Both the position numbers and the translations under genes were made by a program. Shown here piece after piece: positions 23,834 to 50,226 of a stretch of DNA of 64,000 nt (position 1 is the stretch's first letter; each line of letters starts with the position of its first letter). The stretch is from Sphingobacterium sp. ML3W (GTDB lineage Bacteria > Bacteroidota > Bacteroidia > Sphingobacteriales > Sphingobacteriaceae): positions 4,712,001 to 4,776,000 of the forward strand of contig NZ_CP107036.1 in NCBI RefSeq assembly GCF_029542085.1, read 5' to 3'. The notes beneath the pieces are model-generated. The model worked only from the letters and a program-made list of their open reading frames with translations, did no database searches and was not told where the DNA came from.

Positions 23834-24955
23834 TTAAGCGTTATTTAACATCACAGGCATAACCAACATCAAAATGTCCTCATGATCTTCAGACGTCGCA
23901 GGAATCAATAAACCGGCACGATTTGGTGTACTCATTTCGATAACAACCTCTTCGCTTTCAAGGTTATTTAACATTTCAACCAAAAATTTAGCGTTAAATC
24001 CGATCTCCATATCATCCCCCTCAAATTGACAAGACAAGCGTTCGTGTGCTTCGTTGGAGAAATCCAGATCTTCAGCAGAGATATTCAATTCGCTACCAGA
24101 TATCTTCAAACGTACTTGATGTGTTGTTTTATTTGCGAAAATAACAACTCTTCTCAAAGTGTTTAAGAAAAGTAACCGATCAACTGTCAGCTTATTTGGA
24201 TTGACTTGAGGAATTACCGCAGCATAGTCAGGGTAACGCTCATCGATCAAACGACAGATAAGATTGATATTACCAAAACTAAAAAATGCGTTGGTCTGAT
24301 TATATTCGATAGATACTTTTGTATCATCTGATGGTAAGGACGATTTTAATAAAGAAAGTGCCTTCTTAGGTAGGATAAGTGAAGCAGGTTTTTCAGCACT
24401 GATATCTGATCTGGTGTAACGTACCAATTTATGTGCGTCTGTAGAAACAAAAGTCACATTTTTCTCAGCCAATTGCACTAAAACCCCAGACATAGCTGGT
24501 CTCAATTCATCATTACTTACCGCAAAGATCGTCTTACTGATAGCTTCCGAAAGAACCGGAGCTGGCATTTCTATAATAGATCCGTTATCAATAGAAGGAA
24601 TTTTAGGAAAATCATCTGCATTTTCTCCGCTCAATTTATATTTACCATCACCTGCACTGATTTCAATAGCCAATGTATTCATGTCTACTGAAAAAGCAAC
24701 GGGCTGATCAGGGAGAGTTTTTAATGTTTCTATCAAAATCTTAGAAGGCATTGCTACTCTTCCTTCTTCTTTTGCTTCAATCTGCAAAGAAGTAACCATA
24801 CTCGTCTGCAAATCCGTAGCAGAAATAGTCAAGTTATTGTCTTTTATTTCAAAAAGAAAGTTTTCCAATATTGGTAAAACAGTACTTGTACTAGATGCTC
24901 CATTGATAGCTTGTAACTGCTTTAATAAAATTGATGTTGATACAATGAATCTCAT
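23834..24955 (-). CDS. dnaN: DNA polymerase III beta subunit (sliding clamp)
   Basis: A 373-residue beta clamp with the three-domain clamp pattern: MRFIVSTSILLKQLQAI start, ENFLFEIKDNNLTISATDLQ, a central RPAMSGVLVQL and SLILPKKALSLLKSSL, and the C-terminal ILMLVMPVMLNN tail that ends in the conserved 'P-(V/M)' pocket. It tethers the polymerase to DNA. It is about 6 kb from dnaA and not in the classical dnaA-dnaN order. Two DedA genes follow. The 209-base gap before the divergent holB holds CTTTCCACA at 25028-25036, a weak DnaA-box match. Confidence 0.98.
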   Translation of the reverse strand: MRFIVSTSILLKQLQAINGASSTSTVLPILENFLFEIKDNNLTISATDLQTSMVTSLQIEAKEEGRVAMPSKILIETLKTLPDQPVAFSVDMNTLAIEISAGDGKYKLSGENADDFPKIPSIDNGSIIEMPAPVLSEAISKTIFAVSNDELRPAMSGVLVQLAEKNVTFVSTDAHKLVRYTRSDISAEKPASLILPKKALSLLKSSLPSDDTKVSIEYNQTNAFFSFGNINLICRLIDERYPDYAAVIPQVNPNKLTVDRLLFLNTLRRVVIFANKTTHQVRLKISGSELNISAEDLDFSNEAHERLSCQFEGDDMEIGFNAKFLVEMLNNLESEEVVIEMSTPNRAGLLIPATSEDHEDILMLVMPVMLNNA

Positions 24956-31120: not shown

Positions 31121-32545
31121 TTAAGATTTCAATTTCTTCATAATGTCGCTGACATAAGTTTTAAATTTCTTGTCAGTTTCAATTAAATCCTCAACGGTTT
31201 GACATGCATAGATGACGGTTGAATGATCTCTTCCTCCGAAGAATGCGCCAATCGATTTGAGCGAAGATTTTGTGTGGCTTTTTGCTAAATACATCGAAAT
31301 TTGCCTGGCCTGCACGATTTCACGTTTTCTGACCTTTGACTTTACCATATCCACAGGAACCTCAAAGTATTCGCAAACTAATTTTTGAATAAAATCCATT
31401 GAAATTTCCTTATGTGTATTCTTCACAAAATTCTTCAACATCGATTTCGCCAGCCCCAAATCAATTTCTTTTTTGTTCAATGTAGATTGAGCCAATAAAG
31501 AAACCATTGCTCCTTCTAATTCACGAACACTGTTATCGATTTGTGTTGCTACATATTCCACGACATTTTCAGGTAATTCAATGCCGTCAGAATACATCTT
31601 CTTCTTCAAAATCGCCATTCTTGTTTCAAGATCCGGAATTTGAATATCTGCAGATAATCCCCACTTGAAACGACTAAGCAAACGTTCTTCTAAACCAGCT
31701 AGATCTTTAGGTGCTTTGTCAGAAGTCAGAATGATTTGTTTTCCAGATTGGTGCAAATGATTGAATATATGGAAGAAAATATCCTGTGTTTTCTCTTTAC
31801 CAGCAAAATTGTGTACATCATCCATGATGATCACGTCCATTGCCTGATAGAAATTAACAAAGTCATTGATTGTGTTATTTTTCAATGAATCCACAAACTG
31901 CTGACAGAATTTTTCACAGGACACATAAATGACCAACTTATCGGGAAGATTTCTTTTGATTTCATTACCGATAGCTTGGGCAAGGTGTGTCTTTCCCAAA
32001 CCTACATCACCATAAATCATTAAAGGGTTGAATGAAGTACCTCCCGGTTTGTTTGCTACAGCATAGCCCGCAGAACGAGCAAGACGATTACATTCACCTT
32101 CAATAAAATTCTCAAATGTGTAGTTTTGATTCAATTGCGGGTCAACCTGCAATTTCTTTAATCCAGGAATAACAAATGGATTTTTGATATCTCTATTCAA
32201 AGATACCGGCACAGGAATAGATTGTCTCTTACCCTCTGCCCCATTGCCATTCGATGGAAGATTAGTCGTATAGGGATGAGAAGCTGATGACTTCTCAACT
32301 ACAATATTGTATTCCAATCTACCTTGTTCTCCTAGAAATTTCTTTACGGTCTTTCGAAGAATACCCACATAGTGTTCTTCCAACCACTCGTAAAAAAATA
32401 AACTAGGTACTTGAATAGTCAAAACGTCACCCTCCAAACGGACTGCTTTCACAGGTTCAAACCAGGTCTTGAAACTTTGTGCTGGGATATTATCTTTGAT
32501 AATCGAAAGACAATTATTCCAGACACTTGAATACGTTTTTTCCAT
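31121..32545 (-). CDS. dnaA: Chromosomal replication initiator DnaA
   Basis: A 474-residue DnaA starting MEKTYSSVWNNCLSII; the TTG 13 codons upstream is not needed. Domain I is about residues 1-85. The AAA+ domain has Walker A GDVGLGKTHLA, Walker B VIIMDDVHN and the sensor region LLSRFKWGL. The DNA-binding domain IV has the DnaA signature GGRDHSTVIYACQTV. Its product binds 9-mer boxes to open the origin. The upstream region has two DnaA-box-like sites. dnaN is not next to it, and the better box cluster is 9 kb away at 41.3-41.7 kb. Confidence 0.98.
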   Translation of the reverse strand: MEKTYSSVWNNCLSIIKDNIPAQSFKTWFEPVKAVRLEGDVLTIQVPSLFFYEWLEEHYVGILRKTVKKFLGEQGRLEYNIVVEKSSASHPYTTNLPSNGNGAEGKRQSIPVPVSLNRDIKNPFVIPGLKKLQVDPQLNQNYTFENFIEGECNRLARSAGYAVANKPGGTSFNPLMIYGDVGLGKTHLAQAIGNEIKRNLPDKLVIYVSCEKFCQQFVDSLKNNTINDFVNFYQAMDVIIMDDVHNFAGKEKTQDIFFHIFNHLHQSGKQIILTSDKAPKDLAGLEERLLSRFKWGLSADIQIPDLETRMAILKKKMYSDGIELPENVVEYVATQIDNSVRELEGAMVSLLAQSTLNKKEIDLGLAKSMLKNFVKNTHKEISMDFIQKLVCEYFEVPVDMVKSKVRKREIVQARQISMYLAKSHTKSSLKSIGAFFGGRDHSTVIYACQTVEDLIETDKKFKTYVSDIMKKLKS

Positions 32546-33035
32546 TCTAAAATTGTTAATAAGTTGATTTACAATACGCGACAAAAAATATGTTGATAAC
32601 TTTCTCTGAGAACGAAGATGACAAAAAAAAATCAGCTAAAAAACTAAAATATAAAATAATTAATAAAAATCTATATATCAGCTGTTTACCTTGTAAAATT
32701 GTGGAAAACTCGCGCTAAAATTGATCTCTAAAAATAATTATTAACATTCCAAATTTATTTCAAAAAAAAGAACAAAAAAAGTAGTAAACATACTACAGCT
32801 CAGTCTTAAAGGTATAGAACTAAATTAACCAAAATAAAAGCGAAATACAACCTTTAGTTCATATATTTTTAATATTAAATTTATAAGAATTTAAACTCTA
32901 CTTAACAACATTACTCAACATCTTTCTACTCTATTCTGAAGCCCTTGTGAAATAAAAAAGTATAATAATTATAGGTTATTGAACAATCGTTTTTGTAACA
33001 TGACAGGAAGGAAGATTCCAAAAAAACTTTTTTCA
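32546..33035. promoter_or_regulatory. dnaA upstream region with DnaA-box-like sites
   Basis: A gene-free AT-rich stretch of about 490 bases. TGTTGATAA at 32591-32599 and TGTGGAAAA at 32700-32708 are each one change from the reverse complement of TTATCCACA, which suggests autoregulation of dnaA. No larger cluster was seen here. Confidence 0.5.
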
Positions 33036-33040
33036 GCAAA

Positions 33041-33073
33041 AAAAAGGAAATCCCTTTAGAGGATTTCCTTTTT
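33041..33073 (-). terminator. dxs terminator
   Basis: A 13-bp stem (AAAAAGGAAATCC with its complement at 33061-33073) with a seven-base loop; on the minus strand it ends in a long T-run. Confidence 0.9.
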
Positions 33074-33097
33074 ATGGTAAATTATAAGTGGCTGGAT

Positions 33098-36097: not shown

Positions 36098-37150
36098 TTA
36101 ATCCTTTTTTTTGAAAGCATTCCAGCCCTGCGCTGTAATTGGATATAGATTTCCAGATTTCGAAATCATTTCACAGCCTTCTGAAGCAGCTGTCATATAG
36201 CCTATGATACTGATATCAGGCAAATTCTTAATCTTATCGTGATCTGACTGTGCTATTGTAAACAGCAGTTCATAATCCTCTCCACCATTAAGTGCTGCAA
36301 CGGTTGGATCAATACCAAATTCACGTCCAGTATCATAAGTCATCTGATCCAATGGAATTTTTTCCTCATACAATCTACAACCTTTGTCAGATTGGCGACA
36401 GATATGTAGTATTTCCGAAGCCAAACCGTCCGAAATATCCATCATCGACGTAGGTATAATGCCCAATTCTGCAAATAATTCAACAATATCTTTCCGCGCT
36501 TCTGGTTTTAACTGACGTTCAACAATATAGTCTTTACCCTCCAGATCCGGCTGCACGTTAGGATTTTCTAAGTAAATATCTTTTTCTCTCTCCAGTAGCT
36601 GTAATCCCATGTATGCTGCTCCTAAATCTCCGGATACACACAATAGATCACCTTCTTTTGCTCCGCTACGATAGACGATCTTTTCTGCATCGGCATAGCC
36701 TATACTTGTTACTGATATAACGAGACCTTGTGCTGAAGCCGAGGTGTCCCCACCCACCAAATCAACATTATACTTTTTACAGGCAATCAAAGCCCCCCGA
36801 TAGATCTCCTCCACCGCCTCCAATGGAAATTTGGAAGATAGACCAATAGAAAATGTAATTTGGGAGGCAATACCATTCATAGCATAAATATCACTCAAAT
36901 TTACCTGTACAGCCTTATAACCTAAATGTTTTAATGGAACATATCTCAGATCAAAATGGATTCCTTCTAGGAGCAAATCAGTAGAAATTAAAGTCTTCTT
37001 TCCTTCAAAATCCAATACCGCTGCATCATCACCAATTCCTTTAATAGTAGATTTCTCGGTCAGCTCTACTGCTTTACTTATATAGTCAATTAGACCAAAC
37101 TCTCCCATTTCTTCCAAATTGGTACGTTCAGTATTATCAAAATCAAACAT
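36098..37150 (-). CDS. thiL: Thiamine-monophosphate kinase
   Basis: A 350-residue ThiL, which phosphorylates thiamine monophosphate to the diphosphate with ATP. The acidic GIGDDAAVL motif near residue 40, STDLLLEGIHF, GGDTSASAQG, VSGDLGAAYMGL, SMMDISDGLASE and NGGEDYELLFT are all family markers for metal and nucleotide binding. The length is typical. It lies downstream of nadA on the same strand, with a long hairpin in the gap, so it is probably a separate unit. Confidence 0.95.
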   Translation of the reverse strand: MFDFDNTERTNLEEMGEFGLIDYISKAVELTEKSTIKGIGDDAAVLDFEGKKTLISTDLLLEGIHFDLRYVPLKHLGYKAVQVNLSDIYAMNGIASQITFSIGLSSKFPLEAVEEIYRGALIACKKYNVDLVGGDTSASAQGLVISVTSIGYADAEKIVYRSGAKEGDLLCVSGDLGAAYMGLQLLEREKDIYLENPNVQPDLEGKDYIVERQLKPEARKDIVELFAELGIIPTSMMDISDGLASEILHICRQSDKGCRLYEEKIPLDQMTYDTGREFGIDPTVAALNGGEDYELLFTIAQSDHDKIKNLPDISIIGYMTAASEGCEMISKSGNLYPITAQGWNAFKKKD

Positions 37151-37248
37151 GTTTAAAAATTTAAAAATTCAAAATATTATATTATGCATAATCAGGGCAT
37201 TTCTCTCGATCCTTATCAAGATAGCTTGATTAATAGCATTATAAAATA

Positions 37249-37288
37249 ATAATCGATATGAAAACCAATTTGTTATCATATCGATTAT
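37249..37288 (-). terminator. Hairpin after nadA
   Basis: A perfect 13-bp inverted repeat (ATAATCGATATGA with its complement at 37276-37288) with a 14-base loop, 22 bases past the nadA stop. The U-tract is weak. A second small palindrome, ATCAAGATAGCTTGAT, lies at 37215-37230. Confidence 0.65.
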
Positions 37289-37309
37289 CATCAAAAATTA
37301 TGCAAATTA

Positions 37310-38305
37310 CTACAGTCCCAAACTTGCCGATATCTCTAACATCCGTTCAATAGGCTTTTGTGCGCGAAGTATGACATCTTCAGGAAGTAAAATTTCAGGC
37401 GATTCATATTTCAAACAATTATAAAGCTTCTCAAGCGTATTAAGCTTCATGTGAGGACAATCATTACATGCACAGGCGTTGTTCGGTGGAGCAGGAATAA
37501 AAGTCTTCTCAGGGCTTGCTTTCTGCATCTGATAAAGAATTCCAGATTCCGTGGCAACAATATAAGACTGGGCACTATCTGTCTGTGTAAACTTAAGCAT
37601 TCCGGCGGTGGAACCAACATAATCTGCTTTAGCTAAAATATGGTCTTCACATTCAGGATGGGCAATAAACTTAGCTTCAGGATATTCGCTCTTGAGACGA
37701 TCTATTTTATCCTGAGAAAAAATTTCATGTACCATACACGCTCCATTCCACAACACTAGATCACGTCCAGTTTTTTTCTTCACATATGCCCCAAGGTTAC
37801 GATCTGGCCCAAATATGATCTTTTGGTCTATCGGAAGACTCTCGACAATTTGAACCGCATTGCTTGAGGTACATACGATATCTGAAAGCGCTTTTAATTC
37901 AGCTGTACAATTTACATAAGTAATCACCAAATGATCAGGGTATTGCTCTTTAAATTTAGCAAACAAATATGGTGGACATGAATCCGACAACGAACAACCA
38001 GCTTTAGCGTCTGGCAAAATAACTTTTTTTGTTGGTGAAAGTATCTTAGCTGTCTCAGCCATAAAATGTACTCCAGCAAACACGATCAAGTCTGCATCCG
38101 TTTTTGCTGCTTCTTGCGACAAGCCCAAACTATCCCCAATATAATCTGCAATATCTTGAATTTCAGACTCTTGATAATAGTGTGCTAAAATTACAGCATT
38201 CTTTTCTTTCTTTAATCGTTGGATTTCGGCTACCAAATCCAATGAGGGGTCAATCGGAGCATCATTATATCCTTTTGCCTGAAGCTCATAATTTACAATT
38301 TCCAT
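37310..38305 (-). CDS. nadA: Quinolinate synthase
   Basis: A 331-residue NadA, which condenses iminoaspartate with dihydroxyacetone phosphate to quinolinate using a 4Fe-4S cluster. The Cys-bearing segments [16 protein letters not shown] and the C-terminal [18 protein letters not shown] supply the three ligand positions. [19 protein letters not shown] and [14 protein letters not shown] are diagnostic. It diverges from nadB, the preceding enzyme in the pathway, across the 3.4 kb gene-free region. A TATTTTTG box lies 29 bases upstream. Confidence 0.97.
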
Positions 38306-38333
38306 GCGAGTACTTTCAACAGTTTATGAACAA

Positions 38334-38341
38334 CAAAAATA
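38334..38341 (-). promoter_or_regulatory. -7 promoter box for nadA
   Basis: On the minus strand TATTTTTG fits TAnnTTTG and ends 29 bases before the nadA ATG. Confidence 0.4.
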
Positions 38342-38862
38342 AGCATTGTTACATATATAAAAGTCAGCAAAAAGCAAATTAATCAAATATGTAGATAGAG
38401 GAAATTAAAAATAATATAAAAATTAAAGTTAAATAATTATCGTAAAAAAACATACACCAAGAAATAACTAATTTTAAACCCTCTTAGAGTTGTATATCTA
38501 ATAAATAACCAACCTATATATCCGATATCAAAAGCTCAGGGGGTTTGTTTCAGAATCTTTCCAATACAGAAAACGAATTTCTATGAATTTCTAGCCTTTT
38601 GAACGTTCTTCGGCATGTTACAAAACAAGGAAAAATATAGCAAAAACGGAAGCTTTATTTATTAACATTTTCTATTTGATCGAAATTTGCAGCCATTAGA
38701 ACCCGCTATTCAAAAACGAATTTATGAAGGAAAAAAATATTGATGTCTAGGGAAATTTTGGAAGAAACTTCAAGAACCATCCCCCCTTCTAATAACTACC
38801 ATATCGAGCCGCTATAGACGGTAAAAATATGTCGATTTCAAAGAGAATAGCATCCGCAAATA

Positions 38863-39474
38863 TAAAGTCGTTTAGAATTGATTATTCCCGTGTAGGAAGT
38901 CAGCCGCGATTTTTAAAAAAATCTAAAAGACTATATTTTTAAATCAACCAGTTTTTGAGAAAATAAAAATCTAAAAAAATAGGGAAAGGATTTTCTATAC
39001 ACAATCCATTGTCAAATAAGGCCGCTGAGAATTGGATATTCACATACTAGCAGCTAGCGGTGAAGTTTTAAGAATACCTGAAAGACTTTATTTTAAATCA
39101 ATCAGTTTTTGAAAAAATAAAAATCTAAAAAATAGGGAAAGGATTGTCTATACACAATCCATTGTCAAATAAAGCCACTGAGAATCGAATATTCACATAC
39201 TAACAGCTAACGATGAAGTTTTAAGAAAACCTGAAAGACTTTATTTTTAAAAAGAGCATTTTTTAAATGCACGAATCCAAAGGGTAAAACAAGCGTAATC
39301 TAAACGCTATCCATTCTCAAATAAAGTCGCTGAGAATTGAATATCTGTCTCTATTATCAACATAATGTGCTGCAGCAAAATCTCAAAGACTTTAAATTCT
39401 CGGATAAAGTGTTTTATACCGCAGATTTCGAAAATAAAAACTTGTATTATGAATAGATCAAGACAGTCAAAAGT
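38863..39474. repeat. Degenerate tandem repeat, unit about 153 bp, four copies
   Basis: The motif (t)aaaG-CCGCTGAGAATTGAATATTC recurs at 38863, 39017, 39170 and 39322, spacings 154, 153 and 152. The second half of copies 1 and 2 is nearly identical, including a 25-base block (38994-39018 and 39147-39171) with an exact 153-base offset; the first half of copies 2 and 3 is also close. Copy 4 is much eroded. A GGATTGT-ctatac-ACAATCC hairpin (39141-39160) sits in copy 2 and is partly lost in copy 1. Confidence 0.85.
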
Positions 39475-39644
39475 AGTTAATTAAATAATCCAGATCGATT
39501 TTAAAAGTTAATCGATTCCGAAAGACAAATATTGGCTATTTAGATAAAAAGTCTTTTATAATCCCGTTTTCTAATAAAATAAGAAAGTAAAAATTATATA
39601 TAGAAAGCTAGGAGGTTTGTTCTATTTATAAGGTAAAAATTCAA

Positions 39645-41245
39645 CTAAATAAAGGCCGTAGGAATAGAATATTCATAGGAAAAATCAATAAATTGGATTT
39701 TATTCAAGCCTAGCAGGCTTTGCCTATTAAACAAACCCCTTATGGATAAACTATTCGATATAATAAATAGAAAATAGGCTTATACCGGAATCTAGAACGC
39801 TCAAAAAAACTATTCCTCACATAGAAATGAATTAAGAGTTTAGAATAATGTATTCCTACTAAAGCGTCTACTAATACATTCCAATTAACTCAGAAATATA
39901 TAGAAAAGATAGCCATTTCTATGCTTTCTATCAATGTAAAGGAATATCATTTAAAAAATTTCTATATAATTAAATATAAATAATATATAAAATTATATTA
40001 CAATAACAATACCAATATAATTTAAAATAGTATAAAATATCATTATAATTAACTATTGTAACTTCTAAAGTCTCTTATAGGTTCTAAGAATTTAATAATC
40101 TATAGCCATCAATCCTACAATAAAAATAATCCAATCATAAAGCCTTTAGAACCCATTTTTTGGCACAAATAAACTCTTTTAGAATTGACCAAATTTAATA
40201 CTTTAGAAAGTATATAACTCTATTGCATTCATAGAGACTTTATTTTAAAAATAAACTCCTTGAGATTGCCATAAAAAATATACAATATTTAATAGTGGCA
40301 TTCATTAAAAGCTAAAGCACTTAAATTTTCCATTTCCAAAAATGCCCAATCGATACTGGGTCGCAAATATAGTAAGAATGTTCATTTCTCAATAAATTTT
40401 TTTAAAATAACACAATCGCACTCAATTTCATTCTTCTACTATGAAATTATGCTCGGATCATCAAATACGCGGGGTTATACAATTCGATTAGCATATTTCA
40501 AATACCATTTAGAATCTATTAGCAATTTTTAAAAAAAATCCAATGGAAAATATTCAATTCTAATCGCTTCTATTTTACAAAAATTTATAATAAAGCCGCT
40601 GAGAATAGCATAAATACCAATAAATACTCCAAAAATTTGAATATCTCAAAGAAATCGCTAGTAGATCGCCATTAAATAGGTTTTTTCAAAATTTTCAATC
40701 CTATAAAACTACTTTTTTGAAAATAGTCGATCTCAAAATAAATTCTGCTTGTCTTAAAGCCAGTAGGAATCCAATAAAACGTCAAAAGTATACTAACGAA
40801 TCCTTTATTTGATTCTGAGACTGTGCAAAATTTCAAATTTCAAAATATAGAAATCTCCCAAAATTACGTTCGAAAATTCGATAAAAAGTCCTAGCCTAAA
40901 CTATTTTAAACTTAGTAAACCAAGAATATTCCAGAAAAAAATAAAATATTAAAGCGAAAACGACCTAAATAAACAAATTTTTCCATTTAAAATGAATTTA
41001 AACGCATTAAGGCTCAGATGGAATACGAATAAAGTTATCGGAAGTGAAATATACAAGTCTAATAGGCTCAAAAACGAAATTCCAAAATAAAAAGCATAAA
41101 AATGCCAACACAAACTCTTTTATAATCTCATAAAATCTTGTTTTTAAAATTTTTAAAAAAATATTCAATTCTAAAGAGCTCAAAAATCCCTCAAGAATTT
41201 AATTTCCGAAAATAAAGCCGTTTAGAATTCGATATTTCAATAGGG
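39645..41245. repeat. Dispersed degenerate copies of the repeat motif
   Basis: Further matches to AATAAAGCCGCTGAGAAT lie outside the tandem block, at about 39647 (ends in AGAATATTCATAGG), 40167, 40247, 40587 and 41209 (AATAAAGCCGTTTAGAATTC). The one at about 40234 joins the unit's AGACTTTATTTTAAA part to the motif. All are on the same strand. Confidence 0.65.
39957..40070. other. Extreme AT tract, possible DNA-unwinding element
   Basis: A stretch made almost only of A and T (TATATAATTAAATATAAATA and similar), in which G and C are rare over more than 100 bases. It is a candidate easily melted element, but it lies over 1.2 kb from the DnaA-box cluster. Confidence 0.4.
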
Positions 41246-41323
41246 GAGTTAATCACTTCCAAATATCGTAACCTAAAAAGGTTTGATTCGATATTGACAA
41301 AACTAAACAAAGATTTTCGAACG

Positions 41324-41685
41324 TATTCCACAATCTTCTTTTTCAATAAATACTAATATTTTAAATTAAAGAATCTCTTATTGTTTATTAGGGTGTGGAA
41401 AAGTGGTATAAATTGATTTGAATCTATTTTGAATTTAGGTTTTTATAGAGTTTTCAACAATTTTTCAACAGAAATTTGCTATTAAAGAGCTGATTTTTAA
41501 AATTCTAATTTTTCTTGTTTTTTATTTTCCATACTTTTTTGTTGAATAGTTAGTGTTCGTAAAATGTGGAAATCTATCAATTTTTGTGCGGAAAAATAAT
41601 TGGAATTCGTAGTGAAAGTAGGGGATTTGTGGAATGTTAAATACTTTTCATTTTTATTTAACCTTTTATTTACACGTTTTCCACA
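41324..41685. other. oriC: Candidate oriC: DnaA-box-like cluster upstream of nadB
   Basis: Sites seen within 362 bases: TATTCCACA 41324, TGTGGAAAA 41394, TTTTCAACA 41451 and 41462, TGTTGAATA 41540, TGTGGAAAT 41565, TGTGGAATG 41628 and TTTTCCACA 41677. The TTTTCCACA type differs from TTATCCACA at one base and is also found before dnaA. The top strand turns G- and T-rich from about 41341, after A-rich sequence to the left. Origin function is inference. Confidence 0.6.
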
Positions 41686-41740
41686 TTTTTCGTTAATTTG
41701 AACCATCACTTTTGGGGATAGTTTGTGAATTTTAAAATAT

Positions 41741-43333
41741 ATGGCAGATAGAAAGGTAGATTTTTTGGTCATTGGATCAGGTATTGCCGGATTGAGCTTT
41801 GCATTAAAAGCTTCTAAATTTGGTAAAGTGTTGATAGTCACTAAGTCCAATGAGGATGAGTCTAATACAAAATATGCGCAGGGGGGAGTGGCTGCCGTTG
41901 TGGATAAGTCAGACAGCTTCGAGAAGCATATCATTGATACTCAGATAGCTGGTGATGGTTTATGTGATGTGGAAATTGTGGAAAACGTAGTTAGAGAGGC
42001 GCCGGATCGGATTGCCGAACTTATTTCGTATGGCACCTCATTTGACAAGGAGGAATCTGGGGTATATGACCTAGCTAAAGAAGGGGGGCACTCAGCTCAT
42101 CGTATTCTCCATTATAAAGATATAACAGGTTACGAAATAGAAAGAGCGTTGTTGGTACAAGCACACAACGATCCTAATATTGAAATGGTTACTCATTATT
42201 TTGCTATCGATTTGATTACCCAGCATCATATGGGGGAGTATGTTGATAAGAATAGGGAAGATATTACCTGTTATGGTATCTATGCATTTGATACCTCATC
42301 GCATCTTGTAGACAAGATTTTGAGTAAGGTGACTGTCATGGCATCTGGTGGTGCGGGGCACGTGTACTCAAGTACAACTAATCCGACTATCGCTACTGGG
42401 GATGGAATAGCAATGGTTTACCGAGCGAAGGGAAAGGTGCGTAACATGGAATTTTTGCAATTTCATCCTACCTCATTATATAATCCGAAAGATTCACCTG
42501 CTTTTTTGGTTTCGGAAGCCGTTCGTGGTTTCGGAGGGATCCTTAGAAGGATAAATGGTGAGTCTTTTATGGAGGAATATGACGAAAGGGCATCTTTGGC
42601 TCCAAGGGATATTGTTGCGCGTGCTATAGATGCTGAAATGAAGAGGTCAGGTATAGATTATGTGTATTTGGATATTACACATAGAGATAAGAAGGATATT
42701 ATTAAACACTTTCCAAATATTTATGAGAAATGTCTTTCTATAGGATTGGACATGGCTACAGACTTTATACCGGTCACTCCGGCTGCCCATTATTTATGTG
42801 GTGGAATTTATGTGGATGATTTTGGACGAAGTAGCATACGTAATCTGTATGCCTGTGGAGAGTGTTCATCGACTGGATTGCATGGGGCAAATCGATTGGC
42901 TTCTAATTCTTTGCTTGAAGCGCTTGTATATGCTCATCGGATCTTTTTGGATGCTACAAAATCCATTGGAGCTATAAGCCATGTTTCCGATGTCCCCGAG
43001 TGGGATGACTCTAAGACCTCCCTTTCTAATGAGGATATTTTAGTTAGTCATAATCTGCGTGAATGCCAAAAAATCATGAGTGATTATGTTGGTATTGTTC
43101 GGTCAGACTTTAGATTAGAAAGGGCACTCAAACGCCTACATTTGTTATATGAGGAAACAGAGGAATTTTATCGCAATACTCGGCTTTCTGTGAAGCTTTG
43201 TGAACTACGGAATGTGATCCAGGTCGCTTATATCCTAACCAAGTCGGCTATGCTTAGAAAAGAAAGCAGGGGCTTGCATTATACAACAGATTATCCACAG
43301 CATTCAGATATATTACAGGACACGATATTTTAG
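41741..43333 (+). CDS. nadB: L-aspartate oxidase
   Basis: A 530-residue flavoprotein that oxidises L-aspartate to iminoaspartate for NadA. The FAD-binding GSGIAGLSFALKA is near the N-terminus (residues 12-24). KYAQGGVAAV, KEGGHSAHRILHYKD, the active-site region FLQFHPTSLY, APRDIVARAID, TPAAHYLCGGIYVDDFGR and TGLHGANRLASNSLLEALV are diagnostic. The C-terminal helical domain is complete. It diverges from nadA across the candidate origin. A perfect TTATCCACA occurs in the coding end at 43291-43299, possibly by chance. Confidence 0.97.
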   Translation: MADRKVDFLVIGSGIAGLSFALKASKFGKVLIVTKSNEDESNTKYAQGGVAAVVDKSDSFEKHIIDTQIAGDGLCDVEIVENVVREAPDRIAELISYGTSFDKEESGVYDLAKEGGHSAHRILHYKDITGYEIERALLVQAHNDPNIEMVTHYFAIDLITQHHMGEYVDKNREDITCYGIYAFDTSSHLVDKILSKVTVMASGGAGHVYSSTTNPTIATGDGIAMVYRAKGKVRNMEFLQFHPTSLYNPKDSPAFLVSEAVRGFGGILRRINGESFMEEYDERASLAPRDIVARAIDAEMKRSGIDYVYLDITHRDKKDIIKHFPNIYEKCLSIGLDMATDFIPVTPAAHYLCGGIYVDDFGRSSIRNLYACGECSSTGLHGANRLASNSLLEALVYAHRIFLDATKSIGAISHVSDVPEWDDSKTSLSNEDILVSHNLRECQKIMSDYVGIVRSDFRLERALKRLHLLYEETEEFYRNTRLSVKLCELRNVIQVAYILTKSAMLRKESRGLHYTTDYPQHSDILQDTIF

Positions 43334-43900: not shown

Positions 43901-45580
43901 TTATTCCTTTTTGAGTCCAGTTAATGAAAAGCTATCTTTTTGTTCCCAGTTTGCACGTATCGTGAAAACCTTATTTAGGTAGACAACAGGCTCTGGGAAA
44001 GTCTTCTTCTCAACATCTCCGGTATCCCATATTCCATTATTATTGTCATCGCGAATGACACGTATTGTATATTTTCCTCCCGGAAACTGTTTGTAAGCTA
44101 CTGATGGATTAAAACTATTGATCTTATCTATTCTATATATCTTATCTTTTTTCTCATTGATCAGTTCGACCAAGTAGGTTGTATTGCTATCCAGATCCGT
44201 AAAATCAAATATTAGATCCCCATAGTTTTCACTATCATCGTAAGTCAGATCGAATTTCTTCTCTTTATTTTGTTCCCCAAAATATCCTGTTATGGCACCT
44301 TCTGTAAATTCTATCTGATATTTTTTCTCTTTTCTCCAATTATAACGGATATGGTAAATATTGGAGTCATTTGTATCCACTGCCAATTGATAGTTTGTTC
44401 TTATAAGAGAATCTTCTTTGAACTTCAACTTCGCTTTATCTATATTTTTTATCGGGGTAAAAGCTGATACCTGAAGGTGATTGATCCTATCCACTTTACC
44501 ATTATTTGGTGTAAATTGTGGGTCTATAACTTGTTCTATTTTCACATTTCCTCTTCTGACAAGAATAGTATCCAAAGGTTTCTCATCTTCTGTTAGAACG
44601 AGTTTGAGTGAGTCTATTTTTAAGTTGGGAAGAAACAACGTCGCAGAATCGGAACTCTTCGAGAATCGTACTATTTTATCCTTGTTATTGACTTCATCGT
44701 TCAGAATCTTAAGCTTTGGTTTATCCACTCTTCTATTGAAAATGAGGAGCACACTTCCATTTTTCTCAAATTTCTTTTCTTGCGTGCGGAATTTTTTTGG
44801 AACAGCTTTGAATACTTCTAGATTGACATTGGTAAGGTCCCGTTCTAATACGATGGAATCTTTTAGAAAGCCTATTTCTTCATCGGGTGCATTATAGATC
44901 CGATCATTGTTTTTTTCCTGGAGAGCATATATACGATATGTTCCCTCACGAAGGTTATTTAGTTTGTAGTTTCCAGCAGTATCTGTTATTGTGAAGATAT
45001 TGGCTTTCTTTTTTCCAAAAATAGAATCCTGGCTTGTAGGTATTAGAAGAACTTTAACTTCTTTTAATACTTCTTTTGTCGTTGCACTTTTTACATTGCC
45101 CGATATACTGAGCGAGTCAATTTTGTCACCAGTTGCAAATACATAAGCATAATTTACTAAGGCATTCCCTGCATTATAATCTACAAGGCCCTTACCGAAA
45201 TATATGCTATAGGTTGTATTTTTTTCCAGTGAATCTGGTAAGGTGATTTCCAGATTTTTTTTCTTGACTTTGAATTGGGGATTACTTCCCATATCCGGTG
45301 TGATACTAAATTCCTTTTGCTGATTGGCCAACTTGACATATTCATCAAAGGTTATAACGATTTTTTTTTCGGTAAAATTCTTCGAAAAGTTCGTAGGACT
45401 TTCCTGCAGAATTTTTGGAGGAATAGAGTCTTTTGGTCCTCCTGTTGGCTGCTGTATACTTGCACATTGTATTGATAAGCCAATGAGCATTATAAACATG
45501 CTTAAAATAAGTAATCTCGTTTTTAAGCTACTTTTTAGCCTTTCTGAACTACTTTTATTACTTTTTAAAGAAGTTGTCAT
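43901..45580 (-). CDS. Ig-like (Big_5-type) domain lipoprotein
   Basis: A 559-residue exported protein. After a basic N-terminus, a hydrophobic stretch (LLILSMFIMLIGLSIQC) ends in a Cys, consistent with a lipoprotein. The next part (GGPKDSIPPKILQESPTN, then FSKNFTEKKIVITFDEYVKL) is the SbsA-type Ig-like domain found in many Bacteroidota lipoproteins, followed by a carboxypeptidase-regulatory-like domain (NYKLNNLREGTYRIYALQE) and an end with DDNNNGIWDTGD. The start could be the inner ATG at about residue 28. The role is unknown, probably outer-membrane associated. Confidence 0.8.
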   Translation of the reverse strand: MTTSLKSNKSSSERLKSSLKTRLLILSMFIMLIGLSIQCASIQQPTGGPKDSIPPKILQESPTNFSKNFTEKKIVITFDEYVKLANQQKEFSITPDMGSNPQFKVKKKNLEITLPDSLEKNTTYSIYFGKGLVDYNAGNALVNYAYVFATGDKIDSLSISGNVKSATTKEVLKEVKVLLIPTSQDSIFGKKKANIFTITDTAGNYKLNNLREGTYRIYALQEKNNDRIYNAPDEEIGFLKDSIVLERDLTNVNLEVFKAVPKKFRTQEKKFEKNGSVLLIFNRRVDKPKLKILNDEVNNKDKIVRFSKSSDSATLFLPNLKIDSLKLVLTEDEKPLDTILVRRGNVKIEQVIDPQFTPNNGKVDRINHLQVSAFTPIKNIDKAKLKFKEDSLIRTNYQLAVDTNDSNIYHIRYNWRKEKKYQIEFTEGAITGYFGEQNKEKKFDLTYDDSENYGDLIFDFTDLDSNTTYLVELINEKKDKIYRIDKINSFNPSVAYKQFPGGKYTIRVIRDDNNNGIWDTGDVEKKTFPEPVVYLNKVFTIRANWEQKDSFSLTGLKKE

Positions 45581-45657
45581 AAAAAATAGAATATTGTCTT
45601 AAATCGCTTATTTTAAGCTTGTTTATTTTTATTTATAATCACCTGTAAATCAATTAA

Positions 45658-47517
45658 TTAACTCATATGTACCATCAAAACGCTGATATCTGATGGTGAT
45701 ACACCCGAAATTCGGGAAGCTTGGCCTAATGTTCTAGGTTTTACCTTCGCCAATTTTTGTCTTGCTTCAATTGACAGTGAAGTTAGTAAACTATAATCGA
45801 AATCAGGATTAATTTCTCTATCTTCCATCTTCTTCATGCGATTTACTATTTCTATTTCTTTTTCAAAATAGCTCTCGTATTTCATGTTAATTTCCGCCTG
45901 TTCTATTGTTTCATTATCAAATTGAGAAACATATTGAGCAAAGGCTTCATCGCCTCTGACGATATCTTGTATGCTAACCTGTGGTCGGGCCAGTACATTA
46001 CTTAAACGTGTTTTTTGAGCAAGTGCACTGGATCCAACTTCTGCCAATACCGTATTCATCTTTTCAAGATTCGTTGAGTTCTGTTTTAGGTATTCAATGA
46101 TGTTATTGGAGTTATCTATTTTATCTTGCACTTTCTTTAGCCTCTCCTCTCCCACTAATCCTAGTTTGTAGGCTAATGGTGTAAGACGAATATCGGCGTT
46201 ATCCTGACGCAGCAGTAAACGGTGCTCTGCTCTAGAGGTAAACATGCGGTACGGTTCCTCGGTTCCTTTTGTGACAAGGTCATCTACTAATACACCAATA
46301 TAAGATTCGGATCTTTTTAGAATAAGTTCTTTGTCATCATTGATACGTTGATGAGCGTTTATACCAGCAAGGAATCCTTGTGCTGCAGCTTCTTCATAAC
46401 CCGTGGTACCATTGATCTGCCCAGCAAAAAATAGATGTTTTACCAATTGGGTTTCTAATGTCAGATCGAGCTGCATTGGTGGAAAATAGTCATATTCTAT
46501 TGCATATCCCGGACGATACATCTTTGCATTTTCAAATCCAGGTATAAGTTGTAGCGCTTTTAGCTGTACATCCTCTGGAAGTGATGTGGAAAATCCGTTT
46601 ACATAAATTTCCACTGTTTTGAATCCCTCTGGTTCCACAAAAATTTGGTGTCGCTCACGCTCCGCAAAACGGTTGATCTTGTCCTCTATTGAGGGACAAT
46701 AGCGGGGACCTAAACCTTTAATTCGCCCAGTAAACATTGGCGATTTTTCGAACCCCGTACGAAGCATTTCATGTACCTTATCGTTGGTATATGTAATCCA
46801 GCAACAGCGTTGTTCTGTCGGCATCTCTACATCTGTATAGGAGAATCTTCCTTTCTTTTCATCACCCCATTGTTCTTCCATGAGACCATAGTTAAGACTA
46901 CGGCCATCAATTCTTGGTGGAGTGCCGGTTTTCATTCTACCTGATTCGAAGCCCAGTGAAACGAGCTGTTCGGTTAATCCTGTAGCAGCCTTCTCTCCTG
47001 TTCTACCGCCACCAAATTTTTTATCACCGATATGGATTACGCCATTTAAGAATGTCCCATTTGTTAGGACAACAGCATCCGATTCAATTTCTATTCCCAT
47101 AGAAGTGATGACTCCACATGCCTTTCCGTTTTTAACAATTACCTCTTTGACTGTATCTTGCCACATATCTAGATTTGGCAGAGATTCTAATTGTAATCTC
47201 CACTCCTCTGCAAATCGCATCCGATCATTTTGTGTACGTGGACTCCACATCGCTGGACCTTTTGAAAGATTAAGCATGCGGAATTGAATCGTTGATTTAT
47301 CTGCAATGATACCTGTGTATCCTCCCATTGCATCTATTTCTCTCACGATTTGTCCTTTTGCTACACCACCTATAGCGGGGTTGCAACTCATTTGAGCTAT
47401 CACACCCATATTCATTGTAATAAGCAAAGTGGAAGAACCCAGATTGGCTGCTGCTGCTGCTGCTTCACATCCCGCATGTCCTGCACCTACTACAATTACA
47501 TTGTATTTTTTAAACAT
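45658..47517 (-). CDS. mnmG: tRNA uridine-5-carboxymethylaminomethyl modification enzyme MnmG (GidA)
   Basis: A 619-residue FAD protein that, with MnmE, installs cmnm5 at U34 of some tRNAs. The FAD motif [15 protein letters not shown], the signature [23 protein letters not shown] and [18 protein letters not shown] are all present. The C-terminal helical domain is complete. Two parS-like sites flank its promoter, and a TAAATTTG box lies 45 bases upstream. GidA was named for its frequent location near the chromosome origin, which fits the picture here. Confidence 0.98.
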
Positions 47518-47528
47518 CTCTATATACC

Positions 47529-47544
47529 TGTTCCACGTGAAACG
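47529..47544. promoter_or_regulatory. parS: parS-like ParB-binding site 1
   Basis: TGTTCCACGTGAAACG matches 15 of 16 bases of the conserved bacterial parS TGTTCCACGTGAAACA. It lies between the mnmG -7 box and the mnmG ATG, inside the predicted 5' leader. Confidence 0.85.
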
Positions 47545-47562
47545 TGGTTTTTTATTTGTTTA

Positions 47563-47570
47563 CAAATTTA
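47563..47570 (-). promoter_or_regulatory. -7 promoter box for mnmG
   Basis: On the minus strand TAAATTTG fits TAnnTTTG. It lies between the two parS-like sites, 45 bases before the ATG. Confidence 0.55.
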
Positions 47571-47582
47571 CTCTTTTCTCTA

Positions 47583-47598
47583 CGTTCCACGTGAAACC
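47583..47598. promoter_or_regulatory. parS: parS-like ParB-binding site 2
   Basis: CGTTCCACGTGAAACC keeps the full 14-base parS core GTTCCACGTGAAAC; only the two outermost bases differ. It is 54 bases from site 1, about five helical turns, so both lie on nearly the same face of the DNA. Confidence 0.85.
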
Positions 47599-47610
47599 CG
47601 ATTGAAAATT

Positions 47611-49476
47611 TTACATAAAATCTGCAAGATATAACCATCGTTCAGATTTTTGGTCTATGTGTTCTTGCATAGTTTTGATCTCCTCTACTAATGTTGAAAG
47701 CTTGACATGATCTGTTAATTGATTTAATTCTTCAGTCTTTGCCTTTACCTGTAGTTCGAGATTTTCTATTTCTGTTTCCAGTTTATTGTATTCAAGTTGA
47801 TCTTTGTAAGAGAGCTTTTTCTTTTCCTCTTTTACCTCGGGTTTAGCTTTGTCTTGACTATTTTTCTTTTGTTTTTCCTTTTCTATTTTTTGGATTTCGT
47901 CTTGTTCTGATTTAAAGTCGGCATAGTTTCCATTATAGATACGGATCTTACCTGTTCCCTCAAATATGAAAAGTTGATCTGTCAACTTATCCAATAGATA
48001 TCTATCATGGGATACCAATATAAGTACGCCTTTATAGTTGTCAAGAAAATCTTCAAGTACATTTAAAGTGTCAATATCTAGGTCATTGGAAGGCTCATCT
48101 AGTATAAGAAAATTAGGATTCTTCATTAATACCCGCATCAATTGAAGACGCTTTCTTTCCCCGCCACTAAGTTTGTTTACAAAACCAAATTGCTTCTCTG
48201 GAGGAAACAAAAAGTGTGTGAGTAATTGAGAAGCTGTAATCACTTCTCCATTTGCCATCTCAATATAATCAGCAACATTTTTTACAACATCAAGTACACG
48301 ATCATTTTCATTTACTTCAAGTCCTCCTTGTTTATAGTATCCATATACAGTAGTCTCTCCTACTGCTATGATTCCGGCATCTGGAGTTTCTTCTTTTGTG
48401 ATAAGATTTAAAAAGGTTGATTTACCAGTTCCGTTTTTTCCCGCTAGACCTATACGGTCACCTTTTTTGAATGTGTAAGAAAAATCTGTTATGATTTCTT
48501 TCGCTCCATAATGCTTGGATACATGTTCTAGTTCAAGAATTTTAGAGCCCTGTCTGCTTACTTTTACACTAAGCTGAACAGAATCATTTCCTTTTATTGA
48601 TTTGGATTTTTCTTCTAGATCATAGAAAGCTTCGATGCGGGATTTTGATTTCGTACCTCGTGCCTGAGGTTGACGCCGCATCCATTCCAATTCTTTACGA
48701 AGTAGATTTCTGCTCTTCTCGACCATGACTGCATCGATAGTCTCTCTATCTGACTTCTTCTCCAGAAAATAGGAATAGTTCCCTTTATAAATGTAAAGAT
48801 TACCCCTATCCAGTTCTCTGATTTCTGTACATATATTATCCAGAAAGTAGCGGTCGTGTGTGACTAAAAGGACTGTCTTGCTACCAGTGGTCAGCAACTT
48901 TTCTAACCATTCAATGGTTTCTATATCCAAGTGATTGGTTGGCTCGTCTAGGATATATACATCCGGCTCGTCTATCAAAAGTTTGGCCAGTGCGAGTCTT
49001 TTACGTTGTCCTCCGGAGAGACTTTTTATGTCCTGCTGAAAGTCCATAATATTTAAACGATTTAAAATCGTCTTTATATTATGCTCATATTCCCAAGCAT
49101 TCAATGAACTTATTTTTTCAGTAAGATCTTCTAATTTTTTTTGATCAATATCAGTACTTTCAAGAAGTTCTTCATATTCCCTGATTAGACGTTGCTGATC
49201 GTTGTCTGCACTATATATAAAATCATTGATTGATTTTAATCCTGTGAAATCAGGATCTTGTTCGAGAAAGCCTATTTTTATACCCTTTTCTTTGACAACT
49301 TTTCCTGATGTTGGCAAGGTACGATCCGCTAAAATAGAAAGCAATGTTGATTTGCCTGTACCATTTATTCCGACCAAAGCCACCCGCTCTCCTTTTTGGA
49401 GTCCGAAGTGTAAATCTCTAAAAAGCCACCTATCATGGAAGGAATGGCTTACTTGTTCTGTAGCTAAAATACTCAC
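47611..49476 (-). CDS. ABC-F family ATPase, Uup-like
   Basis: A 621-residue protein with two ABC ATPase domains and no membrane segments. Walker A is GINGTGKSTL and GKNGTGKSTF, the signatures are LSGGQRKRLALA and LSGGERKRLQLM, and Walker B is ILDEPTNHLD and ILDEPSNDLD. The linker (EWMRRQPQARGTKSKSRIEAF) and the C-terminal coiled coil (about residues 540-615) fit Uup rather than EttA. ABC-F proteins act on ribosomes. The stop lies 93 bases before mnmG, across the parS pair. Confidence 0.93.
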   Translation of the reverse strand: MSILATEQVSHSFHDRWLFRDLHFGLQKGERVALVGINGTGKSTLLSILADRTLPTSGKVVKEKGIKIGFLEQDPDFTGLKSINDFIYSADNDQQRLIREYEELLESTDIDQKKLEDLTEKISSLNAWEYEHNIKTILNRLNIMDFQQDIKSLSGGQRKRLALAKLLIDEPDVYILDEPTNHLDIETIEWLEKLLTTGSKTVLLVTHDRYFLDNICTEIRELDRGNLYIYKGNYSYFLEKKSDRETIDAVMVEKSRNLLRKELEWMRRQPQARGTKSKSRIEAFYDLEEKSKSIKGNDSVQLSVKVSRQGSKILELEHVSKHYGAKEIITDFSYTFKKGDRIGLAGKNGTGKSTFLNLITKEETPDAGIIAVGETTVYGYYKQGGLEVNENDRVLDVVKNVADYIEMANGEVITASQLLTHFLFPPEKQFGFVNKLSGGERKRLQLMRVLMKNPNFLILDEPSNDLDIDTLNVLEDFLDNYKGVLILVSHDRYLLDKLTDQLFIFEGTGKIRIYNGNYADFKSEQDEIQKIEKEKQKKNSQDKAKPEVKEEKKKLSYKDQLEYNKLETEIENLELQVKAKTEELNQLTDHVKLSTLVEEIKTMQEHIDQKSERWLYLADFM

Positions 49477-49839: not shown

Positions 49840-50226
49840 TTAATTCAATGCATAATCCGCAATCAGATTGAAACGTGGTATTTCAACCTGGAAACTGCTA
49901 TTATCCAAAGAACGGATCATATTGTAATGACCTTCCATGAAACCAAATTCACTGTTGAGATTACATCCCGAAGTATATTGATGTACTTGGCCCGGTTCGA
50001 TAACAGGCTGCTCGCCTACAACACCTTCTCCCGACACTTCCCTATAGTCGCCTTTTGCATCAAATATTTTCCAGTAACGACTGATCAATTGTACCGTGTA
50101 ATCGCTCAAATTTTCTATGCTAATGTGATAAGCAAACATAAAATGTTCACGGTCGGGATTAGAATACTCCGATTGATAGATGGTTTCAACCGAGATTTTT
50201 ACGCCTTCTGTAATTTGTGTGATCAT
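49840..50226 (-). CDS. apaG: ApaG-domain protein
   Basis: A 128-residue ApaG (DUF525) protein with a fibronectin-like fold. Family marks are FMFAYHISIENLSDYTVQL, SRYWKIFDA, VVGEQPVIEPGQVHQYTSGC and GFMEGHYNM. ApaG has been tied to Co2+/Mg2+ resistance in enterobacteria, but the biochemical function is uncertain. It is a single gene that diverges from the methylase gene at 50375. Confidence 0.93.
   Translation of the reverse strand: MITQITEGVKISVETIYQSEYSNPDREHFMFAYHISIENLSDYTVQLISRYWKIFDAKGDYREVSGEGVVGEQPVIEPGQVHQYTSGCNLNSEFGFMEGHYNMIRSLDNSSFQVEIPRFNLIADYALN

Follow-up and report, generated by a model that had tools for sequence, protein, structure and literature searches.

A replication origin very probably located in the divergent nadA-nadB intergenic region of a Sphingobacterium chromosome, apart from dnaA

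INTRODUCTION

In Bacillus subtilis, the chromosomal replication origin (oriC) adjoins dnaA. In Escherichia coli and Yersinia, oriC sits between gidA (mnmG) and mioC (PMC10225481), and in Bacteroidetes it is commonly far from dnaA, according to the authors of the Prevotella intermedia OMA14 genome (PMC4755523). At the level of sequence, a BUS-type origin is described as having at least three trios by a DnaA box, most often 3'-GAT-5' (PMC8287927). For the family Sphingobacteriaceae, just one predicted coordinate pair was found in the open-licence literature: in Pedobacter sp. Hv1, Ori-Finder placed oriC at positions 65,484 to 65,930 of Contig 12 (PMC4683228). No paper on a Sphingobacterium origin was found in the same literature and, among the titles listed, none that ties nadA or nadB to such an origin.

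Here, we analyze a 64,000-nucleotide stretch (the window) of Sphingobacterium sp. ML3W, namely bases 4,712,001 to 4,776,000 of its 6,553,094-bp genome, which is a single contig. We conclude with high confidence that the segment 41324 to 41740 of this window, within the divergent nadA-nadB gap, is the chromosomal oriC of this bacterium. A preliminary description had placed the origin upstream of nadB rather than at dnaA, and this proposal is supported by the strand-composition switch, by the DnaA boxes, and by relatives in which dnaA is distant.

RESULTS

Genes around the nadA-nadB gap

The proposed origin lies about 9 kb from dnaA, among the following genes and sites.

23834 to 24955, minus strand: dnaN
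31121 to 32584, minus strand: dnaA, the sole Bac_DnaA match in the genome, scoring left-arm
37310 to 38305, minus strand: nadA, quinolinate synthase, the first left-arm gene
38306 to 41740, no strand: divergent nadA-nadB intergenic region, 3.4 kb here
41741 to 43333, plus strand: nadB, L-aspartate oxidase, the first right-arm gene, scoring strongly right-arm
45658 to 47517, minus strand: mnmG (gidA), scoring right-arm in lagging orientation
47529 to 47544, plus strand: parS-like site TGTTCCACGTGAAACG, 2 mismatches to the parS consensus
47583 to 47598, plus strand: parS-like site CGTTCCACGTGAAACC, 3 mismatches to the parS consensus

All of the markers that had been noted within 18 kb (dnaA, dnaN, mnmG, and two parS-like sites) were located there. 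The neighborhood hence contains the genes and sites associated with origins, yet parB is distant: the single match to ParB (TIGR00180), at contig positions 5129866 to 5130375, is about 376 kb from the proposed origin. Of the four parS-like sites that score best in the 1.05 Mb examined, two lie 6 kb from this origin and two at 99027 and 157842 in window coordinates.

A dense cluster of DnaA boxes upstream of nadB

The elements of the proposed origin are as follows.

41324 to 41685, no strand: DnaA-box cluster, proposed oriC, with eight sites at most one mismatch from TTTTCCACA
41324 (plus), 41394 (minus), 41451 (plus), 41462 (plus), 41525 (plus), 41565 (minus), 41587 (minus), and 41677 (plus): these eight sites with their strands
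41324 to 41332, plus strand: DnaA box TATTCCACA facing the 41394 box, followed by 2 bases and then CTT CTT TTT
41333 to 41393, no strand: AT-rich stretch between two facing boxes, a candidate unwinding region
41376 to 41409, plus strand: conserved core, genus consensus TCTTATTGTTTATTAGTCTGTGGAAAATGGGGAT, profile score 55.9
41394 to 41402, minus strand: exact DnaA box TTTTCCACA within the conserved core
41677 to 41685, plus strand: exact DnaA box TTTTCCACA in the conserved right block

The eight sites span 362 bp, and the coordinates previously given for eight DnaA-box-like 9-mers, including the two exact ones at 41394 and 41677, were reproduced exactly. Among 560 TTTTCCACA-type sites in 1,049,379 bp of the same genome (the window plus 100 sampled stretches), this cluster is the densest, with 8 sites per 400 bp against 4 in the runner-up. 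None of 1,000 dinucleotide shuffles of the region reached 8 boxes (mean, 0.3). With the looser pattern TTWTNCACA (one mismatch allowed), the cluster has 9 sites, compared to 7 at three other places, a small margin, meaning that the strength of the cluster rests on the TTTTCCACA form. A dense intergenic cluster of boxes, as expected of a DnaA-dependent oriC, is present here. Upstream of dnaA, the two boxes counted in the preliminary description were found again: 2 sites of the TTWTCCACA type in 550 bp, one of them exact.

The stretch between the two facing boxes (41333 to 41393) is 82% A+T by composition count, compared to 76% for 41324 to 41740, and the minima of the keto skew (41373) and of the intergenic skew (41377), which are described below, both fall inside it. 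In a scan of 41201 to 41760, the box at 41324 is followed by one run of three weak trio-like pyrimidine-T-W triplets (CTT CTT TTT), and no 3'-GAT-5' DnaA-trios were found in this segment of the genome.

Several other local elements were considered. No support was found for an inverted symmetry formed by the facing boxes together with their flanks, with 1 of 61 loci beating its shuffles at a level of at most 10 in 200. An Rfam scan of 37000 to 42500 gave one subthreshold match (E value of 0.19), which was rejected, and de novo 7-mers, counted against a zero-order background, are descriptive only. A conserved ACAAAACTAAACAAAGA-type block in the window at 41297 to 41313, minus strand, adjoins the first DnaA box. 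Read on the minus strand, this block resembles the Bacteroidota promoter element TAnnTTTG, and it may be the ancestral nadA promoter.

The leading/lagging switch lies between nadA and nadB

Across the sampled chromosome, GC skew is predominantly negative up to the window and predominantly positive beyond it, with its minimum in or beside the window; it turns back near 1.2 Mb, which is 0.25 to 0.3 Mb off the point opposite. Over the 384 contiguous kb that surround the window, the cumulative minimum of keto skew (G+T minus A+C) is at 41373, whereas that of raw GC skew is at 50115. The turn in top-strand composition reported at about 41341 is therefore real, since the keto minimum is 32 bp away. 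A nuance is that the raw GC minimum is at 50115 rather than at 41.3 kb.

The raw GC minimum is displaced because of three minus-strand genes at 43901 to 49476. Since raw GC skew alone is misleading here, a strand-corrected gene model was built from leading/lagging codon-position composition and trained on 241 open reading frames (ORFs) of at least 100 codons outside the window; it puts 219 of these 241 genes (~90%, an in-sample figure) in the correct arm. To the left of the nadA-nadB gap, 34 of the 38 ORFs starting in the window score left-arm, and to the right, 17 of 19 score right-arm. The strand-corrected cumulative minimum falls after nadA, placing the leading/lagging switch between nadA and nadB, and the minimum computed from intergenic bases alone (41377) is inside the box cluster. 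The cluster hence sits at the leading/lagging switch of the chromosome.

Could the origin instead lie near the raw GC minimum at 50 kb, by an ABC-F gene, mnmG, and the parS-like sites? Besides the minimum at 50115, the parS-like sites at 47.5 kb speak for this position, as does the fact that mnmG neighbors the origin in E. coli and Yersinia (PMC10225481). However, the three minus-strand genes at 43901 to 49476 score right-arm in lagging orientation, nadB is strongly right-arm, and no box cluster is found there in the 1.05 Mb examined. An origin at 50 kb is also 4.3 to 6.4 units worse in a whole-chromosome model described below, and we consider it highly improbable.

An origin in the region upstream of dnaA (32585 to 33097), with the nadB cluster serving as a secondary DnaA-binding site, is a further alternative. 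dnaA is less than 10 kb from the cluster, and the region upstream of it carries an exact box in this genome and 1 to 4 boxes per 550 bp in those relatives whose sequence covers it. (In one relative, G005, dnaA appears as two matches, the second of which contains a stop [G005:C2:816041-817499].) Against it, genes to the right of dnaA score left-arm (dxs, -15.8; thiL, -13.4; nadA, -10.9). Moving the switch to just upstream of dnaA makes the fit about 42 log-likelihood units worse, which equals the scores of dxs, scpA, thiL, and nadA together; this cost is generous because the model treats sites as independent.

A coarser model, which uses third-position GC skew only (GC3-only) for 756 genes of the whole chromosome, fits best at 38 kb. 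The box cluster and 34 kb are each 2.1 units lower, and the region upstream of dnaA, 50 kb, and 36 kb are 6.8, 6.4, and 6.3 units below the best, respectively; apart from 36 kb, positions between 34 and 41 kb stay within about 2 to 4 units of it. The cluster is thus only 4.7 units above the dnaA-upstream position, a point in favor of an origin at dnaA, and 4.3 above 50 kb. The GC3-only scan gives coarse support: it backs the neighborhood without resolving positions within 34 to 41 kb. Overall, no skew minimum was found clearly elsewhere, for example at dnaA, and no skew switch adjoins dnaA, a result to which the GC3-only model and Parapedobacter (see below) lend weaker support. Together with the distant-dnaA relatives presented below, these data make an origin upstream of dnaA highly improbable.

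Origin signals remain at nadA-nadB in several relatives with distant dnaA

The distance between dnaA and nadB ranges from about 6 to 57 kb in the genomes of the genus that have both genes on one contig. As a test of separation, we read the dnaA-nadB stretch in the three most distant cases, G019, G030, and G034, in which dnaA is 57, 49, and 40 kb off, respectively. The GC minimum is 370 bp upstream of nadB in G019 and 404 bp upstream in G030, where the keto minimum is elsewhere; in G034, the keto minimum is 379 bp upstream of nadB and the raw GC minimum is about 9 kb away. Once gene strand is included as a covariate, the best change point in all three genomes exceeds the nadA-nadB gap by at most 0.3 log units, although several positions across 8 kb fit about equally in G030. 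Taking dnaA as the change point is worse by 35.2 (G019), 8.2 (G030), and 15.8 (G034). In these genomes, dnaA lies inside one arm, 40 to 57 kb from the switch, which argues against an origin at dnaA.

Two genomes of other genera have even larger separations on one contig. In Parapedobacter pyrenivorans, dnaA and nadB are 355 kb apart. Over its first 160 kb, raw skew uncorrected for the strand of genes has its GC minimum 0.9 kb and its keto minimum 1.6 kb upstream of nadB, positions that fall within nadA and not in the gap; the skew sampled at dnaA and to either side of it is positive, and that at 180 to 280 kb is near zero. In Mucilaginibacter sp. MD40, about 0.9 Mb separates dnaA from nadB, and GC skew is very weak, too weak for the fit to favor nadB over dnaA: the best log-likelihood ratio is 4.2, at about 0.2 to 0.3 Mb, compared to 2.0 for nadB and 2.4 for dnaA. 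Our strongest comparison is that origin signals stay at nadA-nadB in several relatives although dnaA is much further off, clearly in G019, G030, and G034 and less sharply in Parapedobacter.

Boxes and core are conserved in the genus

Named relatives found through NadB identify this genome as a Sphingobacterium; the nearest are Sphingobacterium sp. GVS05A and S. detergens, with 99% NadB identity. We compared a genus set (the best 30 NadB loci from 36 genomes, including this one) and a set of 43 named Sphingobacterium-type loci, which share strains. In the former, 4 to 9 boxes are found in the 450 bp upstream of nadB in 29 of 30 loci, the other being cut by a contig end; in the latter, 5 to 9 boxes are found in 480 bp in 42 of 43, the other being truncated. 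Both exact boxes of this genome have counterparts among the 43 loci. An exact TTWTCCACA on the strand of the 41394 box occurs at -334 to -353 from nadB in 36 loci (one of the 43 is cut at -164), and one corresponding to the 41677 box occurs at -51 to -70 in 40.

The conserved core is present in 40 of these 43 loci; of the others, one is cut short and two fail to match the search expression. The core profile scores 55.9 at 41376 and 5.1 at the next best place within 1.05 Mb of this genome; because near relatives supplied the profile, a high score here is expected, and the result lies in its uniqueness. Raw skew minima are also often close to the gene. Among the 38 named Sphingobacterium-type loci of at least 20 kb, the keto minimum falls no more than 600 bp upstream of nadB in 29 loci, the GC minimum does so in 24, and in 6 loci neither does. 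Overall, both the position and the sequence of the proposed oriC are conserved among relatives.

The length of the gap is far more variable. In the S. multivorum-like group, it measures 2.7 to 3.4 kb in all 10 loci whose sequence extends to nadA; outside this group, it is about 0.42 to 0.89 kb, mostly about 0.5 kb in other Sphingobacterium. The expanded, AT-rich noncoding part of the gap corresponds to 38456 to 41155 of the window, and in each of the 11 sequences compared, the top strand of the gap is rich in A. Identity to nine relatives, in 150-bp blocks, is 0.81 to 0.93 from 41156 on, 0.81 in the block adjoining nadA, and 0.27 to 0.70 in between; given this low identity in the middle, gap expansion is unnecessary to the explanation. 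The expanded part holds one further feature.

38860 to 39675, plus strand: direct repeats, several about 153 nucleotides apart

These repeats form one locus in the genome and lie in the poorly conserved part of the gap, and for these reasons they were not assigned to the origin.

The gap in other genera of the family

The divergent nadA-nadB pair is also found in the other genera examined, and the three genera checked (Parapedobacter, Mucilaginibacter, and Pedobacter) were confirmed as Sphingobacteriaceae. The ungapped core profile has its top score at the expected place in 17 of 37 other-genus loci; many Mucilaginibacter have a one-base deletion in the core, which this profile misses. Likewise, the TTWTCCACA scan missed drifted boxes of these genera. 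The exact pattern TTWTNMACA, picked after viewing the alignment of these loci, occurs 132 times in the 37 loci, compared to 20.7 expected from shuffles, and zero times in three Pedobacter among them. Outside the family, none of 14 genomes of the class (those of 24 with a strong NadB match, several with contigs ending near nadB) has 4 or more boxes in any 400-bp window near nadB.

In the other genera of the family, a minimum at most 600 bp upstream of nadB was seen in 0 of 28 loci for keto skew and in 8 of 28 for GC skew, meaning that raw skew in 20-kb loci cannot place the origins of these genera. The keto result also bears on whether the region is chiefly a regulatory one, in which DnaA or an NAD-responsive repressor acts on the transcription of nadA and nadB. 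In favor of such a role, the gap is a divergent promoter region that is retained in the other genera examined. However, regulation leaves the strand switch at this place in several genomes unexplained, and since other genera with the same divergent pair have no keto minimum there, the gene arrangement alone does not create it. We regard a chiefly regulatory role as very unlikely.

DISCUSSION

With the nadA-nadB gap as oriC, initiation may be pictured as follows. DnaA, made from the gene 9 kb away, would bind the eight or so boxes, and the AT-rich stretch beside the conserved core (41333 to 41409) would open, most likely between the facing boxes at 41324 and 41394, where the composition minima fall. 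Two forks would then depart from a firing origin, one toward nadA and dnaA and the other toward nadB and mnmG.

Across the Sphingobacteriaceae compared, dnaA is 6 kb to hundreds of kilobases away from nadB. A broader reading would be that the origin of this family is anchored in the nadA-nadB promoter region, where initiation may be linked to de novo NAD synthesis, and that dnaA has moved freely and the box seems to have drifted from TTWTCCACA to TTWTNAACA with the core still recognizable. Coupling could arise if DnaA controls nadA and nadB or if divergent transcription aids the opening of the origin. We put this reading forward tentatively and think it rather unlikely as a whole.

For a well-sampled genus, the oriC proposed here narrows the origin down to a few hundred bases by sequence analysis alone, and the relatives in which dnaA is distant cleanly tell the origin apart from the position of dnaA. 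It also gives the Sphingobacteriaceae a conserved origin that can be tested. It implies that genome numbering and estimates of replication rate in Sphingobacterium should be set from the nadA-nadB gap and not from dnaA.

How does this locus compare with described origins? Like the BUS of Bacillus subtilis (boxes, spacer, and DnaA-trios), it has boxes that adjoin an AT-rich stretch (PMC8287927), and three pyrimidine-T-W triplets follow one of its boxes, but no clear GAT trios were found in the Sphingobacterium segment. It shares with the origins of E. coli and Yersinia an intergenic box cluster with mnmG near (PMC10225481) but differs in being flanked by nadA and nadB, with mnmG about 4 kb off. 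Chromosome 1 of Prevotella intermedia OMA14, from a more distant genus of Bacteroidota, likewise has an oriC predicted from a skew switch and DnaA boxes and located off dnaA (PMC4755523). An oriC off dnaA is hence already known in Bacteroidetes, and its position looks conserved in this family; the interest of the finding lies in natural genomes that set the origin apart from dnaA, rather than in a new kind of origin. Within the family, the comparison is with Pedobacter sp. Hv1, whose oriC is given as coordinates of an Ori-Finder prediction, apparently with no flanking genes named, in a report that does not mention dnaA in its main text (PMC4683228). Its 430 bp are without an exact TTWTNMACA box, but it belongs to the same family, the gap is homologous, and the core is recognizable in the alignment. 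On Contig 12, the NadB match starts at 65,934 (locus start at 55,934, match at 10,001), so that the published oriC ends just before it, providing, from the coordinates given, an independent prediction in the same family and in the same gap.
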